64,000 nucleotides of DNA, from NCBI RefSeq assembly GCF_019443085.1, contig NZ_JAHZIL010000004.1, forward strand, positions 372,001 to 436,000. The letters are read 5' to 3'. The DNA is from Marinobacter sp. F4218 (GTDB lineage: Bacteria > Pseudomonadota > Gammaproteobacteria > Pseudomonadales > Oleiphilaceae). Both the position numbers and the translations under genes were made by a program. Of this stretch, positions 14,143 to 21,786 are shown in pieces (within the stretch, counting starts at the first letter, position 1; every line of letters begins with the position of its first letter). The notes under the pieces were generated by a model that saw nothing but the letters and a program-made list of their open reading frames with translations, had not been told where the DNA came from and made no database searches.

Positions 14143-15444
14143 TCATTTCCGGTCATTGCCGGCCAGGGAGCGCAACAACTGATCCAGTGAAATCTCCGCC
14201 GGCTGCTCCTTGAGCGCCCTCACCAGGCGGTCCTGCTCACCGAAGCTGACACGATCATAGACAGGCTCTGCCTGACCCGGGCCCGTCGATACCGGGGCCG
14301 TATCCGGTCCCTGTTCCGGAGCGATCTGGTCGGCCAGGTGCCTCAGGTGCATGGCCAGATGACGTTTCTTCTCATCACTCAGTTTTTCCCATTCGAGGGA
14401 GCCAAGCCCGGTCTGGATAATTTCAATGGTGTCACTGTCCGGCGTGCTCCCAAGAAGTGCAAAAAGCCGGGTAAATGCTTCATAACGCAGCATTGCATTG
14501 TCGGGCGTTTGCGCCAGCGTTGCCTCAAGATCACTCACGGCATTCAGGCAACGCTGACGTGGATTCGCCGGTTCGACCAATCCCGCTTGCACCGGCCTGG
14601 CCTCCAGCTGCTGGCGCGAAACCCGGTGCCAGTAGGCGGCGATTCCGGTCTTTCTCGGCGGCGACTGAGAGAGGCGAACATTGAGCATGTCGGCAAGGGT
14701 ATGAAACTGACGACAGGAGGGATCGCCAACCGGCAGCAGTGCAACCGGTTTCTGGTTGAGCACCGACTGCCGCAGGGTTTCGTCTCTCCAGATCCCCCCC
14801 ATGTAGTGAAGGGTCAGGTCGAGATGACGCCGGGCGGCCGAATCCAGGCGCTGGAATACAGACCGGGCCTGACTGGCGCCCTGAGCCATGTTGACCAGGA
14901 CACTTGGAACCCGCTTGTAGCCCCGACGCCGGATGACTTTGATGAGCGAAAATGCATCGGTCAGTGAGGCCGGATCCGGGGTCACAACAATACAGGCCAG
15001 CTCCGCCGCCGCGATCATGTGCAGGCTCGGCGCCTGCAGCCCGGCCGCAGTATCCGTAATCACATAGTCGTACCGGCTTTCCAGCTGAGAGAGCGCCCGC
15101 AGAATACGCAGGCTATCGGAGGGGCTCATGTCCATGCACTCCTGAACGCCAGAAGCGCCGGGGACAATATGCAGGCCATAGTCCGTCTCGAGCAGGGTGT
15201 CCTGTAACCGGCATTCACCGGCAATCACGTTGGCCAGGGTTTTCTCGGGATAAAGACCGACCATGATGCTGACGTTGGCAAGGTCAGTGTCGCCATCAAG
15301 TAACAGGACTCGTTTACCCTGGCGCGCCAATGTAAGCGCCAGGTTGAGAGCAACCGACGTTTTGCCGACCCCGCCCTTACCGCCGGTAACGGCAATGGTT
15401 CGAGGTTGGTTCGATTTGGGCGTGCCAGATTCTTCTACGGTCAT
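14143..15444 (-). CDS. MinD/ParA/FlhG-like ATPase with extra C-terminal region
   Basis: 433 residues. Residues 15-255 are a MinD-type deviant Walker ATPase: GGKGGVGKT at 21-29, LLLDGDTDLANVS as switch region, and VITDTAAGL as Walker B. The arrangement resembles FlhG, but no flagellar gene is nearby. The last 150 residues are helical and polar (ALLGSTPDSD, SDEKKRHLAMHLRHLADQ) and match nothing I recognise. No amphipathic membrane-targeting helix of MinD type is obvious at the C-terminus. It is divergent from the HDOD-kinase gene with 223 AT-rich bases between, which suggests coordinated control. Confidence 0.75.
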   Translation of the reverse strand: MTVEESGTPKSNQPRTIAVTGGKGGVGKTSVALNLALTLARQGKRVLLLDGDTDLANVSIMVGLYPEKTLANVIAGECRLQDTLLETDYGLHIVPGASGVQECMDMSPSDSLRILRALSQLESRYDYVITDTAAGLQAPSLHMIAAAELACIVVTPDPASLTDAFSLIKVIRRRGYKRVPSVLVNMAQGASQARSVFQRLDSAARRHLDLTLHYMGGIWRDETLRQSVLNQKPVALLPVGDPSCRQFHTLADMLNVRLSQSPPRKTGIAAYWHRVSRQQLEARPVQAGLVEPANPRQRCLNAVSDLEATLAQTPDNAMLRYEAFTRLFALLGSTPDSDTIEIIQTGLGSLEWEKLSDEKKRHLAMHLRHLADQIAPEQGPDTAPVSTGPGQAEPVYDRVSFGEQDRLVRALKEQPAEISLDQLLRSLAGNDRK

Positions 15445-15667
15445 GACCGGAGCTCTACGTCCCTGATTGTAAGGAATCCGCCATTTTAACCTGTAAAAAT
15501 TCTACACATATCACAAGACAGATAATATACTGCTTAAAAATACACCAATAAGTATTTAATAACGACGGATTATTGTCTAAGCTCCATTGCAACAACAACT
15601 ACGAATACCCCGTCATGCGTGAACCGACGACGGCATGACACCGAATTAGGCGCGACAGGTAAGCTCT

Positions 15668-17647
15668 ATGGATTTAGCTCCTGATCTACAGTTACCGAGT
15701 CTCCCGGAGGTTACCCTCCGGGCACTTGAGGCCTGTCACCAGGACGAGAGCTACCGAACCATCAGCGAGATCGTGTCCGTGGACACGGCTCTCGTTGCCA
15801 GAATCCTGGCGCTTGCCAACTCCGCACTCTATCGCCCGGCCACACGCATTACCTCGGTGGACCAGGCCTTGTTGAGACTTGGCACACGTCGTTTTCAAAC
15901 TCTGGTGTTGACGGCCGCCCTGCGCCAACTCCTGTTCGAACTGGGGGGCGACGAATGGCAGCAGCTCAGGGATTTCTGGCGACACTCACTGACCACGGCC
16001 CTGACAGCCCGGGCTCTGGCCACGCTCACGCGTTACCGGGAACCCGACGAAGCGTTCATGTTGGGCATGGTCCACAACATCGGCGAACTGATCGCCATCA
16101 AGACGCCCGCACCCGACGCCAAGCAGTACTTTATCACTCACCAGTCCGACATAGCTGCAGAGCTGGTGACGGCCTGGGGCCTCGGCCCTATGGCCGCAGA
16201 CGCCATGCGCTACCAGCAGGCGCTTCCCCACGAACTCCGGGACGCCGGACACCTGGTCAAGCTGATAAGCCTCGCTACACGACTGGCACTGTCCGATGCC
16301 GGGGGTATCGCCGCAGCAGCTACGGTTTTTGGCCTGAGTGAAGAACTAACAAGGGAGATAAACCGGCGAATCTCCCACGAAGTCTCCGGCATGGCCGCGT
16401 CATTGGGAATTCCCCTGGACAACGAATATGACGGTGAAACCGCCACCCGGAAACTGAAACAGACGATCCTGCGGCAGGCGATGGCCAACCAGTCGCTCGG
16501 TTTTGCCAATCTGCATGGCCCGGTCGACGACGTTCTCTCGGAGACCGTAAACAGCCTGACGCTGGTTACAGGCCTGCCCGCGCTCTGTTTCGGGCATAGC
16601 GACGATAACCTGGTTCTTTTGTCGGGCACCACCGGCGCGGTTCCGGAGCTTGCGGTTTCCGCCAACCCCGGCGGCAGCGTGCTGACCGATGCCTTCAGTT
16701 CGGGCAAGCCGGTCAGCCTGGCCGACCGCGCGCCCACGGTTCTCGATCGCCAACTGCTGACCCTGCTGCGGACCCCCTCGCTGCTCGCTGTGCCAGTAGT
16801 CACAGGTAACGACCGCCCCGGCGTGTTTGCTCTGGGCACCGATGAAAAAGACCCGACGACCACATCCGAACTCGCCACTCTGTTCGCCCGCCAACTGTCG
16901 GTGGTCCTCGAGGACCGATCGCAGACCCCCGATGCGGATGGCCAGCAGGATGCCATCCAGCAGGAAGTTGCTCGCGAAATGGTTCGAAGGCAGGTTCACG
17001 AAGTCAGCAATCCCCTGACAATCATCCGCCAGTATATTTACCAGCTCAGGAATCGGCTTGAGGACTCGGACGTTCAGCGGGAGCTGGACGTTATCCGTGA
17101 CGAACTCGATCGTGCCGGCAATCTCCTGCTGCAGATGGGGCACACCACCACAGATGACGATGCCGAGGGCGCCGAGCTCAATGCCGAACTCAAAAGCCTG
17201 TCACGCATTCTGGAGGACAGCCTGTTCACGGACGGCAAACGTCAACTCAACGTGATAATGTGCAGGCAGCCGACGCTGCTGACGGTGGGTGCGGCACCCA
17301 TTCGCCAGATCGTCATCAACCTTGTACGCAATGCCGTGGAAAGCCTGCCCGAGAAAGGCGGCAAGGTTGAGATACGGACATCGGCCCCGGTCTGGCAGAA
17401 CAACCGGACCTGGGTGGAACTGGAAATAACGGATACCGGGACAGGAATTCCCGACGAGATCCGAAGTTCCCTGTTCACCCCGGTGAAAACCACAAAAGGA
17501 AAAGGCCACAGCGGATTGGGCCTGAGCATTGTGAAACAGCTAATTGATGACATGGAGGGCATCATTGCTTGTCGCACAGGGCAGGAAGGCACAGCCTTCA
17601 GGATTCTGCTTCCGGCGGCCAACCACAACAAGAACGAGACCGACTGA
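15668..17647 (+). CDS. HDOD-GAF-type sensor histidine kinase
   Basis: 659 residues with an unusual domain order. An N-terminal HDOD domain (about 8-210; LPSLPEVTLRALEA, VDTALVARILALANSALY, GMVHNIGELIAI) is followed by a GAF-like sensor region (about 290-420) and a C-terminal kinase. The phospho-acceptor His444 lies in RRQVHEVSNPLTII. The ATPase part has VINLVRNAVESL (N box), DTGTGIPDE (G1) and GHSGLGLSIV (G2). No membrane segment is seen, so it senses a cytoplasmic signal. The response regulator begins 24 bases later, making a two-component pair whose output is probably cyclic di-GMP turnover. Confidence 0.85.
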   Translation: MDLAPDLQLPSLPEVTLRALEACHQDESYRTISEIVSVDTALVARILALANSALYRPATRITSVDQALLRLGTRRFQTLVLTAALRQLLFELGGDEWQQLRDFWRHSLTTALTARALATLTRYREPDEAFMLGMVHNIGELIAIKTPAPDAKQYFITHQSDIAAELVTAWGLGPMAADAMRYQQALPHELRDAGHLVKLISLATRLALSDAGGIAAAATVFGLSEELTREINRRISHEVSGMAASLGIPLDNEYDGETATRKLKQTILRQAMANQSLGFANLHGPVDDVLSETVNSLTLVTGLPALCFGHSDDNLVLLSGTTGAVPELAVSANPGGSVLTDAFSSGKPVSLADRAPTVLDRQLLTLLRTPSLLAVPVVTGNDRPGVFALGTDEKDPTTTSELATLFARQLSVVLEDRSQTPDADGQQDAIQQEVAREMVRRQVHEVSNPLTIIRQYIYQLRNRLEDSDVQRELDVIRDELDRAGNLLLQMGHTTTDDDAEGAELNAELKSLSRILEDSLFTDGKRQLNVIMCRQPTLLTVGAAPIRQIVINLVRNAVESLPEKGGKVEIRTSAPVWQNNRTWVELEITDTGTGIPDEIRSSLFTPVKTTKGKGHSGLGLSIVKQLIDDMEGIIACRTGQEGTAFRILLPAANHNKNETD

Positions 17648-17671
17648 CGCAGAAACGACGGACATAGAGCG

Positions 17672-19846
17672 ATGGCACCTGAACTCACTGATCAGCTTCT
17701 CAGTAACGAGTTAACGGCACGCATCCTGGTGGTGGACGACGAACCCCGCCTGCTGGATTCACTCGCCGCCCTGCTACGTGACAGCGGTTATCAGGTCACC
17801 GAAGCCCACGGAGGAAAACGCGCCTGCGAGCTGGCGGATTCGCAGTCGTTTGACCTGGCCTTGCTTGACCTCAGAATGCCGGACGTGGATGGCTTCGATG
17901 TCATGGCTCATCTGGCCGACGTGCAGCCCGACTGCGGTGCCATCGTGGTCAGTGGCGAGAGCTCGTTCAGCGCCGTCAGCCGGGCCCTGCGGCGGGGTGC
18001 GCTGGATTACATCCGAAAGCCCTTCGATCCGGAAGAATTGCTGGCAACGGTTGCCAGCGTGACCAACAAGCAGTCCCTGCTCAAGGCCCACGAACATATC
18101 CAACTGCGCCTGGAAAAATCCGAGGCGCTGCACCGCTACATCGTCAACAGCTCACCCGATATCGTGTTCATGCTCGACGACGACGGCCACTTCTGTTTTG
18201 TGAACAGCAAAGTGGAAAGCCTGCTGGGCTACCCGCCCTCCGAACTGTGCGGGCATCATTTCCGCCATATCCTGGATGACCGGGACGTCACTCGGGGCAT
18301 GTATGCCCTGAACGGACCCAACATAACCGCCGATAACCCGCGAACTCTGGAGGTCCGGCTGAAGACCAGGGGCAGCCGGCGAGCTACCCGCCATTTCGAG
18401 ATCACGGCGTTTCCAATTGACCCGCAGACCTGGCCATATTCCCATGCCACGCAAGGCGGAGGGAACGGCCAGACCGCCCGCTATTACGGTACCGCCCGCG
18501 ATGTCACGGAACGTAAGGAAGCAGAGGCGTTCATCAACTTCCAGGCGTACCACGATCTGCTGACACGACTGCCCAACCGGGCCCTGTTCAAGGACCGTCT
18601 GGAGCTTGCCATTACCCACGCCCGCCGCAGCGACCAGAAACTGGCGGTCATGTTTTTGGACCTCGACCGGTTCAAGGTGGTGAACGACACCCTCGGGCAC
18701 GCCATGGGTGACCGGCTGCTGCAGGCAGTCACGCACCGGTTGGAAAAATGCCTCCGCAAAGGCGATACCCTGTCCCGCTTCGGTGGCGATGAATTCACGC
18801 TTCTCTTGCCATCCATCCACAGTCATGAGGATGCGAGACAAATCGCAAAGAAGTTGATCAATGCGCTGCGGGCGCCTTTCCAGCTCGGCGACCACGAGGT
18901 GTTCGTGGGAGTCAGCATAGGTATTTCAATCTATCCGGAAGCTGGCGACAGCATGGACCACCTCATCCAGAATGCCGACATCGCGATGTACCATGTCAAA
19001 GCCAGAGGCAAGGACGGCTACCGTTTCTACTCCGAAAGCATGAGTATCGATTCCGCCAACCGCCTCAACCTGGAACGGGATCTGCGCTTGGCACTTGAGC
19101 GGGACGAATTACGGGTGTTCTATCAACCCCAGGTGTGCTCAACGACCAATCGCATTGTCGGACTTGAGGCTCTCGTTCGCTGGCAGCATCCGGAGCGCGG
19201 ACTGCTCTATCCGCGGGACTTCCTGCCACTGGCCGAGGAAACCCGCCTGATCGGCCAGCTCAGTGAGCGCGTCCTCGACCAGGCATGCCAGGACGTCGGA
19301 CTGTGGATTCGATCGGGGCATTCCGACCTGCGACTGGCGGTCAATCTCTCGCCGGTTCAGGTCGAACATCCGAAGTTTGTGGATACACTCATGCAACGGG
19401 TGAGAGCCCACCGCTTCCCTGCCCAGAACCTGGAAATCGAGATCACCGAAAACGTGATCATGAACGATCTTGAGCAAATCAGCCAAAAGCTCCGGGAACT
19501 GGCCGCCCTGGGCGTGCGCATAGCCATCGACGATTTTGGTACGGGTTATTCATCCCTGAACTACCTGCACCGGCTTCCCATCCATACCCTGAAAGTCGAT
19601 CAGTCCTTTGTCAAAGCGATCCGCAGCGGTGACGACGGCGCCTGCATCGTCAACGCCATTGTTGCCATGGCCCACGGCCTCAAACTGGAAATCGTCGCGG
19701 AAGGGGTTGAAACCGACGAACAGCTCGAATACCTTCGAAAGCTGGGCTGTCATCAGGTTCAGGGTTTCTACTATGGCCCCGCTCGACCGGCGGAGCATAT
19801 CTCCAGAACCCTGGCGTTTCCGACAGCCCAAGCAGCCTCCATCTGA
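17672..19846 (+). CDS. response regulator with PAS, GGDEF and EAL domains
   Basis: 724 residues. REC domain at about 16-130 with DD at 22-23, phospho-acceptor Asp66 in LLDLRMPD and KPFDPEE; PAS at about 145-285; GGDEF intact at 371-375 (RFGGDEFTLLL); EAL intact at 499-501 (EALVRWQHPERG) with NLSPVQVE, IEITENVIM, IDDFGTGYSSL, LKVD, AEGVETDEQ and QGFYYGP. Both cyclase and phosphodiesterase motifs look competent, so net activity cannot be read from sequence. It is cotranscribed with the HDOD kinase, which is its likely phosphodonor. Confidence 0.9.
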   Translation: MAPELTDQLLSNELTARILVVDDEPRLLDSLAALLRDSGYQVTEAHGGKRACELADSQSFDLALLDLRMPDVDGFDVMAHLADVQPDCGAIVVSGESSFSAVSRALRRGALDYIRKPFDPEELLATVASVTNKQSLLKAHEHIQLRLEKSEALHRYIVNSSPDIVFMLDDDGHFCFVNSKVESLLGYPPSELCGHHFRHILDDRDVTRGMYALNGPNITADNPRTLEVRLKTRGSRRATRHFEITAFPIDPQTWPYSHATQGGGNGQTARYYGTARDVTERKEAEAFINFQAYHDLLTRLPNRALFKDRLELAITHARRSDQKLAVMFLDLDRFKVVNDTLGHAMGDRLLQAVTHRLEKCLRKGDTLSRFGGDEFTLLLPSIHSHEDARQIAKKLINALRAPFQLGDHEVFVGVSIGISIYPEAGDSMDHLIQNADIAMYHVKARGKDGYRFYSESMSIDSANRLNLERDLRLALERDELRVFYQPQVCSTTNRIVGLEALVRWQHPERGLLYPRDFLPLAEETRLIGQLSERVLDQACQDVGLWIRSGHSDLRLAVNLSPVQVEHPKFVDTLMQRVRAHRFPAQNLEIEITENVIMNDLEQISQKLRELAALGVRIAIDDFGTGYSSLNYLHRLPIHTLKVDQSFVKAIRSGDDGACIVNAIVAMAHGLKLEIVAEGVETDEQLEYLRKLGCHQVQGFYYGPARPAEHISRTLAFPTAQAASI

Positions 19847-20081: not shown

Positions 20082-20735
20082 ATGCGCGACAAGTACAAAT
20101 ACATTGGCCCGGTTTACGATTTCCTGAGCAATTTATACAGCGGCAAGAACATACATCGCTGCAAAACCGCCATGCTTGATGTAGAAACCGTTCAGCCCGG
20201 GGATCGCATCCTTTTTGCCGGAGTCGGCCATGGCAGAGACGCCATCCGCGCCGCCGAGCTGGGCGCTGACGTAACCGTTGTCGATCTTTCCGAAACCATG
20301 CTGCGCAAGTTTGGAGAAGCCCAGGAAAAGAAGGCGCCAAACCTGGCCATCCGCCGCATCCACAGCGACATCATGAAGGTGGAAGAGTTCGAACAGTACG
20401 ACATGGTGGTAGCCAACTTCTTCCTGAACGTGTTCGACGAAGACATGATGGTCCGGGTCCTGGAACATCTGATCCGCCTGGGCAAGTCCGACGCGCGGGT
20501 CGTGGTTGGAGACTTCTGCTACCCCACCGGCAATATAGTCGCCCGCATGTTCAAGAAGCTCTACTGGTACATGGCGGTCTTTACCTTCTGGCTCTTTGCC
20601 AACAACGCCTTCCATAAGATCTACAACTACCCCGAGCACATGCAGCGTCTGGGCCTGCAGGTCACCGAAAAGAAGCATTTCAAGCTTCTGAACATGGACT
20701 GCTACTGGTCCATCCTCGGTCGCAAACAGGCCTGA
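20082..20735 (+). CDS. class I SAM-dependent methyltransferase
   Basis: 217 residues with a Rossmann-like methyltransferase core: motif I ILFAGVGHGRDAIRAAELG (about 43-61), acidic loop TVVDLSETML, and motif IV region MVVANFFLNVF. The N-terminus (YKYIGPVYDFLSNLYSGKN) resembles quinone or phospholipid methyltransferases. The stretch LYWYMAVFTFWLFANNAFH is hydrophobic and could rest on the membrane. The substrate is unknown. The DUF2156 gene starts 43 bases later, so the two probably act on the same, perhaps lipid, target. Confidence 0.8.
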   Translation: MRDKYKYIGPVYDFLSNLYSGKNIHRCKTAMLDVETVQPGDRILFAGVGHGRDAIRAAELGADVTVVDLSETMLRKFGEAQEKKAPNLAIRRIHSDIMKVEEFEQYDMVVANFFLNVFDEDMMVRVLEHLIRLGKSDARVVVGDFCYPTGNIVARMFKKLYWYMAVFTFWLFANNAFHKIYNYPEHMQRLGLQVTEKKHFKLLNMDCYWSILGRKQA

Positions 20736-20778
20736 GTGCCGCAGCCATCCAACCAACAATAAACCGGGGAGCAGAGAC

Positions 20779-21786
20779 ATGTCGGATCAGATTCTTGCAC
20801 TGGACGGACTCCGTGAACTGGCAGACAACTCATTTACCTTCGCGGAACGGGTTGGCTACCTTAAGAAATACGGGCTCCACTCCCAGTCTTTTTCAACCCT
20901 GCAGCCCGGCATGCAGTACTTTGACGTTCCCGGGATCGGGTACCTGGCTTACATGCGCAAATGGGGTGGAACCTTTGTGCTGTCGGACCCGGTCTGCGCC
21001 CCCGAGAACTTTTCGGTGATTCTCGAGCATTTTCACAACCGTTTTCCCAATGCCTGCTACATTCAGGTTTCCAAGCCCGTGGTGGATTTCCTGCACCTGC
21101 GGTTCGGCCTGTATGGCACGCAGTTTGGCAGCGAATCGCGGATCGACCTGAGGAAGTGGTCACTGGCCGGCAAGAAAAAACAGATCCTTCGCACCGCACT
21201 GAACCAGGCCGAGAAGAGCAACATCACGGTGAAAGAGCGGTTCAGTGATGACCACACCCGGGAGATTTCCGAAGCCTGGATACGGACCCGGAAGTGCAAG
21301 AGCAATGAGATCCGCTTTCTGATTCGCCCGATGGAGATGGAGTACCGGGAAAACGAGCGCCATTTCTACGCCTATCAGGGGGACAAGGCCGTCGGCTTCA
21401 TCTATTTCGACCCGATTTACCGCAACAATGAAATCATCAGCTACGTGCCGAACATTTCCCGGGCCAACGCCGATTTCCGCCAGGGCATTTTCTACACCTT
21501 GATGGCACACGCCATGGACGTGTTCAAGGCCGAGGGGGTTCCCTACCTCGACCTGGGCCTGATTCCACTGTCACTGGATGCCACCACCGAACACCAGGAA
21601 AGCCGGTCGCTGAAACGACTCCTGCACCTGGTCTACGAGAAGGGGAATTTCCTATATAACTTCAAAGGCCTGGAATTTACCAAGTCGCGTTTCCGGGGGG
21701 ATGGCTTCAAAACCTACTGCTGCCACAAACGCGCGATCCCTGCCCTCGAATTCTTGGCCATGTTCAAACTGACGCGGCTGTTGTAA
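20779..21786 (+). CDS. DUF2156 (MprF-like GNAT-fold) protein
   Basis: 335 residues matching the DUF2156 family, the soluble aminoacyl-transferase-like domain of lysylphosphatidylglycerol synthases, with two tandem GNAT folds. Recognisable pieces are GTFVLSDPVCAPEN, the central TRKCKSNEIRFLI segment, VGFIYFDPIY, YLDLGLIPLS and the C-terminal FRGDGFKTYCC. There is no membrane domain, unlike full MprF. It may transfer an aminoacyl or acyl group to a lipid; this is inference. GGGAG lies upstream of the ATG. Its last 23 bases overlap the convergent murI gene. Confidence 0.75.
   Translation: MSDQILALDGLRELADNSFTFAERVGYLKKYGLHSQSFSTLQPGMQYFDVPGIGYLAYMRKWGGTFVLSDPVCAPENFSVILEHFHNRFPNACYIQVSKPVVDFLHLRFGLYGTQFGSESRIDLRKWSLAGKKKQILRTALNQAEKSNITVKERFSDDHTREISEAWIRTRKCKSNEIRFLIRPMEMEYRENERHFYAYQGDKAVGFIYFDPIYRNNEIISYVPNISRANADFRQGIFYTLMAHAMDVFKAEGVPYLDLGLIPLSLDATTEHQESRSLKRLLHLVYEKGNFLYNFKGLEFTKSRFRGDGFKTYCCHKRAIPALEFLAMFKLTRLL

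Follow-up and report, generated by a model that had tools for sequence, protein, structure and literature searches.

What does an HDOD domain control when it is part of a histidine kinase, and does such a kinase act on the c-di-GMP enzyme encoded next to it? HDOD domains are common signalling modules, for which we know of no established ligand. The window, a 64,000-nt stretch of Marinobacter sp. F4218 (NZ_JAHZIL010000004.1) in whose positions all coordinates are given, encodes both proteins. ORFs and Pfam confirm the pair described in the sequence-only reading, an HDOD-GAF kinase and a REC-PAS-GGDEF-EAL regulator, on the same strand (+) with 24 nt between the called ORFs. A FleN-like ATPase gene upstream of the kinase was overlooked in that reading. 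The features of the locus are as follows.

14143..15444, strand −: divergent FleN/FlhG-like (MinD/ParA family) ATPase, 433 aa (conserved third gene)
15445..15667, no strand: intergenic region with two conserved blocks, possible divergent promoter region (alignment)
15668..17647, strand +: HDOD-GAF-HisKA-HATPase histidine kinase, 659 aa (ORF, Pfam, hydropathy)
15692..16126, strand +: HDOD domain, aa 9–153 (Pfam; HD dyad is H136-N137)
16523..16912, strand +: GAF domain, aa 286–415, differing among relatives (Pfam, alignment)
16997..16999, strand +: His444 codon, predicted phosphorylated histidine in HEVSN (sequence; H444 in 101/101 aligned homologues)
17297..17620, strand +: HATPase_c catalytic domain, aa 544–651 (Pfam)
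17672..19846, strand +: REC-PAS-GGDEF-EAL response regulator, 724 aa (ORF, Pfam)
17723..18052, strand +: REC domain, aa 18–127 (Pfam)
17867..17869, strand +: Asp66 codon, predicted phosphoacceptor (sequence, alignment)
18143..18517, strand +: PAS domain, aa 158–282 (Pfam)
18545..19012, strand +: GGDEF domain, aa 292–447, with GGDEF codons at 18782–18796 (Pfam, alignment)
19076..19780, strand +: EAL domain, aa 469–703, with intact catalytic residues (Pfam, alignment)

By its sequence, the first protein is a HisKA-class two-component histidine kinase, with the H, N, G1 and G2 boxes all present: H444 lies within HEVSNP, the N box at 551, G1 at 589 and G2 at 613–620. The HisKA match (aa 437–487) reaches 22.3 bits, below the cut-off of 26.9, though the H-box is intact. 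Like H444, the residues N551, D589, G591, G593, G616 and G618 are seen in 101/101 aligned homologues. N448 and N555 are each seen in 100/101, the remaining residue at N555 being X. Such conservation, at least 100/101 for each catalytic residue checked, is far beyond chance in this alignment, from which rows L082, L096, L097, L103, L105, L106, L110, L113, L196, L199 and L200 were excluded for the motif counts. The hydropathy maximum of 1.63 over 19 residues suggests no membrane span, and the kinase is predicted to be soluble and cytosolic.

On the input side, the HDOD domain matches PF08668 with an E-value of 3e-36 (125 bits, cut-off 22.9). The GAF domain matches PF01590 with 24.1 bits (cut-off 22.4), and GAF_2 with 27.1 bits, slightly below the cut-off of 28.6. 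The structural model of the kinase is of moderate confidence (mean pLDDT 69, pTM 0.36) and was used for domain folds only; in it, the HDOD region superposes on 3m1t (Z 17.6) and 3i7a (Z 16.7), with rmsd 3.6–3.7 over about 220 residues. The same two chains are retrieved by phmmer with the HDOD region. The Pfam match and the modelled fold thus both identify an HDOD domain. It was also considered as an HD-type phosphohydrolase, and this was rejected: in place of the conserved metal-binding HD dyad stands H136-N137, in 65/65 close rows, and in the 36 other rows the dyad columns contain H in 18 and D in 16.

Among 64 close-relative rows, mean identity to the window is 78% for HDOD, 70% for DHp, 64% for the ATPase domain and 54% for GAF. 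HDOD is the best-conserved domain of the kinase and a nearly constant input, GAF is variable, and HDOD is retained in relatives where GAF is missing. In L198, a kinase core without a Pfam HDOD match adjoins a regulator with an intact REC, so HDOD is not strictly obligatory. Where present, HDOD may set phosphorylation of the regulator.

The second protein carries D22, D23, D66, S94 and K116. The acidic pair, phosphoacceptor Asp, Ser and Lys of a REC domain mark it as a response regulator. Its GGDEF motif is at aa 371–375, immediately preceded by an intact inhibitory I-site RxxD (RKGD, aa 362–365). The EAL motif is at aa 499–501, and the further EAL residues N558, E590, D620, D621, K641, E677 and Q697 are intact. 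The regulator is predicted to be a dual c-di-GMP enzyme, diguanylate cyclase and phosphodiesterase. The residue check agrees with the earlier claim that H444, the ATPase boxes, D66, GGDEF and EAL are all intact. Regulator rows L055, L082, L097, L106, L110, L113, L191, L195 and L199 were excluded from motif counts.

Kinase and regulator may be cotranscribed, because the gap between them is short and conserved (median 23 nt, range −11 to 107, in the 63/71 named loci where both genes are more than 90% covered). In an alignment of 14 Marinobacter intergenic regions, the blocks conserved upstream of the kinase are at about 15488–15515 and 15550–15585. Consensus scans did not exceed shuffled sequence clearly, with 3 promoter-like sites between 15400 and 20100 against 1.5 ± 1.3, and 4 terminator-like sites against 4.2 ± 1.9.

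The sequence-only reading would have been refuted by genes unlinked in most relatives; they are adjacent in nearly all kinase loci. The regulator directly follows the kinase in 70/71 named Marinobacteraceae loci, the sole miss being a contig end, and adjoins it in 40/40 loci outside the genus. In the order sample, 34/244 genomes have a kinase match and 33 of these a regulator match; the 34th is cut by a contig end. In the class sample, the kinase is seen in 11/234 genomes and the regulator in 11/11 of these. Adjacency persists amid otherwise different flanking genes, including those of L091. These sequence comparisons support the pairing of kinase with regulator. Some loci are irregular. Among named loci, frames are interrupted in L055, L082 and L097, and in the latter two several genes are broken and sequencing errors are suspected. 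L106 (Marinobacter sp. S6332) has all three genes truncated and was unused, artefact and decay being indistinguishable there. Outside the genus, L116 has a more divergent regulator, REC-PAS-PAS-GGDEF-EAL, contig ends interrupt L195 and L243, and L191 is split. G436 has its kinase match and regulator match on separate contigs.

Adjacency is also compatible with a regulator that works constitutively as a c-di-GMP enzyme and depends on PAS for localisation or gating, with REC phosphorylation minor and the neighbourhood due to shared ancestry. Genomes in which the kinase is missing bear on this. Beside the kinase, D66 is kept in 107/107 assessed regulators (103/103 rows and 4/4), and D23, D66, S94 and K116 in 103/103 kinase-adjacent rows, even where regulator identity falls to about 42% (31% for L116). 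Of 11 genomes that lack the HDOD-GAF kinase, 9 have lost the phosphoacceptor, 3 by deletion of REC and 6 by replacement of the Asp; these regulators retain GGDEF and those EAL catalytic positions that were checked. In the tree, the three REC-less rows are a single clade inside Marinobacter and six f198 rows that lack the kinase have the kinase-bearing L197 as sister, so these losses are derived. Orthology is less sure for f198 and G203, whose kinase-less regulators share just 36–43% identity with that of the window. D66 is kept in kinase-less G401, where the set is whole but for Glu at D23, and in G335, where Ser94 is changed to Ala. It is also kept in G436, whose unlinked kinase homologue has no recognised HDOD or GAF. 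G155 was rejected as a further REC-less regulator: its regulator lies at the end of a 7332-base contig and its kinase at the end of one of 3486 bases, and a REC piece sits on the kinase's contig. An assembly break was assumed, and G155 was left out of the count.

A constitutive enzyme would fit the three Marinobacter genomes that keep PAS-GGDEF-EAL with intact motifs but lack the kinase, the ATPase and most of REC, and the f198 genomes with decayed REC but intact GGDEF and EAL catalytic positions. The three Marinobacter genomes indicate that phosphorylation would be dispensable for any minimal role of the regulator. REC residues are nevertheless invariant beside the kinase and decay where it is missing, and adjacency outlasts changes of flanking genes; the constitutive reading is distinctly improbable. 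Because kinase-less relatives have usually lost the phosphate-receiving part, kinase and regulator are very probably one switch, and the co-loss independently supports kinase-to-REC signalling.

It is very improbable that the pair is cross-wired, the kinase mainly serving a different regulator. Any support for this is indirect: covariation in 97 paired rows (APC-corrected mutual information, effective number about 50, L116 excluded by choice) did not single out the DHp-REC interface. Among the 100 best-scoring pairs 4 are DHp-REC (1.8-fold), and among the best 500 there are 15 (1.4-fold); GAF-REC pairs are more enriched (3.2-fold and 2.3-fold). The genes are adjacent, however, and it is precisely the acceptor of this REC that is lost in kinase-less genomes.

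The third gene could be a further partner of the switch. The FleN-like ATPase is found in 69/71 named Marinobacteraceae loci and 24/36 testable loci outside the genus, being absent from 12, and one clade of Marinobacter has lost it along with the kinase and REC. The genes are nested: in the neighbourhoods examined, the ATPase is seen only with the kinase and the kinase only with the regulator. Neither an ATPase match near the regulator of a kinase-less genome nor a kinase without regulator was seen there. In Marinobacter profundi (L094) the ATPase has a degenerate P-loop. Its nearest solved relatives are FleN/FlhG (5j1j, 8p53, 4rz2); the match to 5j1j has an E-value of 1.2e-53 by sequence and a TM to target of 0.88 by fold, the Foldseek matches spanning the ATPase part without the C-terminal extension. 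This extension, mostly helical and about 170 aa long, and a locus distant from the FleN gene distinguish it from the genome's own FleN, to which it is 36% identical over residues 10–236. It was rejected as FleN proper, as that separate gene is far nearer to FleN (5j1j, E 5.1e-134).

Resemblance to FleN and FlhG could mean a module dedicated to the polar flagellum, in which the ATPase would govern the number or placement of flagella and the c-di-GMP enzyme would affect motility only. This looks unlikely. The genome carries a separate FleN, two Marinobacter genomes without a flagellin match (G002, G424) retain all three genes, and flagellin is seen in 28/34 kinase-matching against 153/210 other genomes of the order sample, where a hand tally of the profiles gives no clear association. 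The likeliest role of the ATPase is on the input side of the kinase. It can be speculated, tentatively, that HDOD reads the ATPase and turns its nucleotide-dependent dimer or cell position into kinase/phosphatase activity. If so, a MinD-type positional cue would set c-di-GMP.

Gene order, intact motifs, linkage including the ATPase, and co-loss with output domains kept are the observed basis for the following scheme. It is highly likely, as far as sequences can tell, that the locus encodes a cytosolic two-component system in which the kinase, with the ATPase on its input side, retunes the dual regulator from His444 to Asp66. HDOD, plus GAF where present, would set the kinase/phosphatase balance of the HisKA/HATPase core, into whose input the divergently encoded ATPase would feed. 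Phosphate would pass from His444 to Asp66 of REC and be relayed via PAS to shift the balance of GGDEF, synthesising c-di-GMP under product inhibition at the I-site, against EAL, hydrolysing it. We infer the phosphotransfer, the bifunctionality of the kinase, the direction of output and the role of the ATPase.

Kinases paired with GGDEF-EAL regulators are already known. In Legionella, the kinase Lpl0330 is paired with the bifunctional GGDEF-EAL regulator Lpl0329, with no HDOD input to our knowledge. CfcA is, as far as we know, unlinked to cfcR and without HDOD. FimX has the domain order of the window regulator, REC-PAS-GGDEF-EAL, with degenerate motifs, unlike the intact ones here. Membership in the FimX family was rejected: FimX-labelled chains score 90–100 bits against the window regulator, far below the motility regulator (4rnh) and diguanylate cyclase (5m3c) chains at about 400 bits.

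By description, a close likeness in signalling is CfcR of Pseudomonas putida, a response regulator with GGDEF and EAL; for diguanylate cyclase activity it depends on a GAF-containing histidine kinase and on phosphorylation of Asp65 in its REC domain. CfcA is a CHASE3/GAF hybrid kinase, unlike the HDOD-GAF kinase of the window (PMC6849547). In the order sample, the regulator matches at E 1e-150 include none from family f20, which is perhaps Pseudomonadaceae. A precedent for the output, again likened by description, is the kinase/regulator pair ArrS/ArrR of Aeromonas veronii, in which phosphorylation inhibits the c-di-GMP phosphodiesterase (PMC11841396). Among the papers listed in the literature searched, which is thin in subscription journals, none describes, judged by title, opening of the abstract or passages, a GGDEF-EAL regulator with an HDOD kinase as its partner, or the neighbouring FleN paralogue.

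Effects on motility or biofilm are described for other HDOD proteins, among them SadB (PMC8262913), PSPTO_4229 (PMC11813219) and GsmR (PMC4114195). Unlike in these, the HDOD of the window is fused to a histidine kinase, as the nearly constant input of a kinase whose predicted output, c-di-GMP, is measurable in culturable marine bacteria. Natural variants exist in relatives without GAF, without the ATPase, or without kinase and REC, and with these and a measurable output HDOD sensing is directly testable. As a candidate for what HDOD senses, the locus points to an ATPase of the FleN/MinD type.

The kinase and the regulator lie 24 nt apart, and a FleN/FlhG-like gene is divergent from the kinase. 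The three genes are referred to as the module:

14143-15444, minus strand, FleN/FlhG-like ATPase of the MinD/ParA family
15668-17647, plus strand, HDOD-GAF-HisKA-HATPase kinase, 659 aa, predicted phosphorylated residue His444
17672-19846, plus strand, REC-PAS-GGDEF-EAL regulator, 724 aa, predicted phosphoacceptor Asp66 (D66)

Both ORFs of the pair are found in the window sequence with all the domains and motifs claimed in the sequence-only reading, and their spacing suggests cotranscription. The search for related loci gave 72 named loci, nearly all from Marinobacter. One of them (L113), a kinase fragment with 33% identity from a Sphingomonadales genome, was set aside. Outside the genus, 40 kinase genomes of the same class were compared (loci L114-L120, L243, L260-L263, and L174-L202 except L199). 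The proposed pair holds together in both sets. The regulator is downstream of the kinase in 70 of the 71 named loci, the sole miss (L110) being a contig edge, and a REC-type GGDEF-EAL regulator adjoins the kinase in all 40 outside loci, where the flanking genes vary. In L091, the seven other checked neighbours are absent from its 22 kb, yet the three module genes are together. The regulator frame is interrupted in L055, L082, and L097, and truncated in L106. Among the outside loci, L191 is split, L195 and L243 are truncated at contig ends, and the regulator of L116 is more divergent (REC-PAS-PAS-GGDEF-EAL). At L106:9075-12369 (Marinobacter sp. S6332), the ATPase is truncated, the kinase lacks the kinase core and the regulator lacks EAL, which reflects either decay or an assembly artefact.

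Sample counts are lower bounds, as few candidates per genome were scored in samples so large. In the order sample, the kinase is seen in at least 34 of 244 genomes, the regulator in at least 41, and both in at least 33; in G350, a kinase genome outside the 33, the regulator is cut by a contig end (L195). The profile search of the class sample found the kinase in at least 11 of 234 genomes, the regulator in at least 12, and both in at least 11. In the phylum sample, at least 6 of 398 genomes contain the kinase, and no kinase matches were found outside the class among these 398. Within the genus, leaving out the window's own genome, a kinase match at E 1e-60 is seen in at least 30 of 36; the match in G029 covers the kinase core only.

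The kinase is probably a cytosolic sensor, because no stretch is hydrophobic enough for a membrane span (19-residue hydropathy maximum 1.63). In its HDOD domain the HD dyad reads H-N, which makes a phosphohydrolase role unlikely. Among close relatives (64 rows), identity to the window kinase averages 78% for HDOD, 70% for DHp, 64% for the ATPase domain, and 54% for GAF. As the most conserved domain, HDOD is the nearly constant input, and it probably has a conserved ligand. Pfam detects it in 16 of the 17 outside-genus kinases tested (L114-L120, L190, L192, L194-L197, L198, L201, L202, and L260). The 781-aa kinase L198:4588-6933 (G057) has no Pfam HDOD match but adjoins an intact REC-PAS-GGDEF-EAL regulator; it is a possible input swap, so the kinase input may be exchangeable. 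In G029, of the same genus, an HDOD-HisKA-HATPase kinase (L131:9786-11330) without a GAF match adjoins a complete regulator. N448 is nearly invariant (100 of 101 aligned kinase rows), and H444-E-x-x-N448 matches the kinase/phosphatase motif of the HisKA class.

Among 114 aligned regulators, D23, D66, S94, and K116 are kept in all 103 rows beside a kinase; rows are loci rather than independent genomes, the locus sets overlap (L203/L059), and many rows are related. D66 is also kept in four further kinase-linked loci, L260-L263. Eleven genomes contain a regulator homologue without a full-length kinase-model match. In ten, a sensitive search gave HDOD hits and kinase hits only apart from each other; in G203, no kinase match was found in the class search at E 1e-60 or on its 9.5-kb contig. 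G436 (L199) was left out of these eleven and dropped from the outside set: it has an intact REC plus an unlinked kinase homologue, in which Pfam matches neither HDOD nor GAF and which has no adjoining regulator.

D66 is lost in 9 of the 11 kinase-less genomes and in none of the 107 kinase-linked regulators (Fisher p 6e-12, relatedness ignored). Three Marinobacter genomes (G005, G013, and G030) lack the genes for the ATPase and the kinase, along with most of REC, between the same two flanking genes, and retain PAS-GGDEF-EAL. In family f198, D66 is replaced by N, M, A, R, and R in G370, G429, G475, G496, and G535, respectively. G203 has Glu at this position, and D66 is kept in G401 and G335. Tree and taxonomy indicate at least two, perhaps four, separate losses (G203 is outside the tree, and G335 is on a long branch). 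GGDEF and the EAL catalytic positions (E499, N558, E590, D620, D621, K641, and E677) are intact in all 11. In six f198 kinase-less genomes, however, the EAL motif is EAY or EAF, and G203 has EVL together with a changed I-site Arg.

The closest solved relatives of the ATPase are FleN and FlhG. FleN proper of this genome is another gene, whose neighbours resemble a flagellar and chemotaxis cluster in their sizes and order. The ATPase is upstream on the opposite strand in 69 of 71 named loci, and the misses (L096 and L105) are contig edges. Four of the 40 outside loci end too close to judge; among the 36 testable, 24 have the ATPase near the kinase, two of them (L179 and L243) as pieces at contig ends, and 12 lack it. 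In L260 the ATPase follows the regulator, on the same strand. The match in L263, about 2.7 kb away, is weaker (213 bits; true FleN scores 171) and is less surely this ATPase. The kinase-less loci gave no ATPase match near the regulator. Such nesting, and the deletion of the ATPase jointly with the kinase and REC, would place the ATPase on the input side, although one contiguous deletion alone would explain the joint loss in Marinobacter. The ATPase is dispensable: its P-loop is degenerate in Marinobacter profundi (L094:8409-9632), where the kinase and regulator are kept. The distribution of flagellin does not follow that of the module (28 of 34 kinase-matching versus 153 of 210 other genomes; hand tally of the order sample).

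The ATPase-kinase intergenic region contains two blocks conserved among 14 Marinobacter sequences, 15488-15515 and 15550-15585. The latter includes TCTAAGCTC, which resembles an RpoS-type -10. Behind the regulator, methyltransferase and LPG_synthase_C genes (20082-21786) were not found in the module-bearing Marinobacter loci L060, L090, L109, and L112, and therefore are probably not part of the module. In seven loci (L175, L177, L178, L180, L182, L184, and L185), the ATPase is followed on the same strand by a gene that matches GGDEF and is predicted to encode a further module-linked c-di-GMP enzyme; the two tested by Pfam (L175 and L180) are DUF484-GGDEF. Genes with similar starts are near the regulator at L176:1563-2807, L181:615-1847, and L183:11319-12533. 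The L176 gene, the only one tested by Pfam, contains EAL and HDOD; it is an HDOD protein distinct from the kinase and encoded next to the module. At L213:9751-11910, L215:9126-11306, and L197:1956-4133, the regulator adjoins a gene of roughly 720 aa whose product ends in an acetyl-CoA hydrolase/transferase domain. In f198 this gene type occurs whether or not the kinase is there; ORFs of 719-737 aa, known by size and position, occupy the same place in the remaining five kinase-less f198 loci.

Lpl0330/Lpl0329 is reportedly a kinase paired with a GGDEF-EAL regulator. By both sequence and fold, the domains of the module belong to known families. CfcA/CfcR (PMC6849547) is a kinase with a GGDEF-EAL/c-di-GMP regulator, and ArrS/ArrR (PMC11841396) a kinase with a c-di-GMP regulator. 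The window kinase is paired with its regulator as in these three systems, and this type of pairing is already known. The HDOD input, the class-wide adjacency, and the FleN-like neighbour appear to set the window module apart from CfcA/CfcR, ArrS/ArrR, and Lpl0330/Lpl0329.
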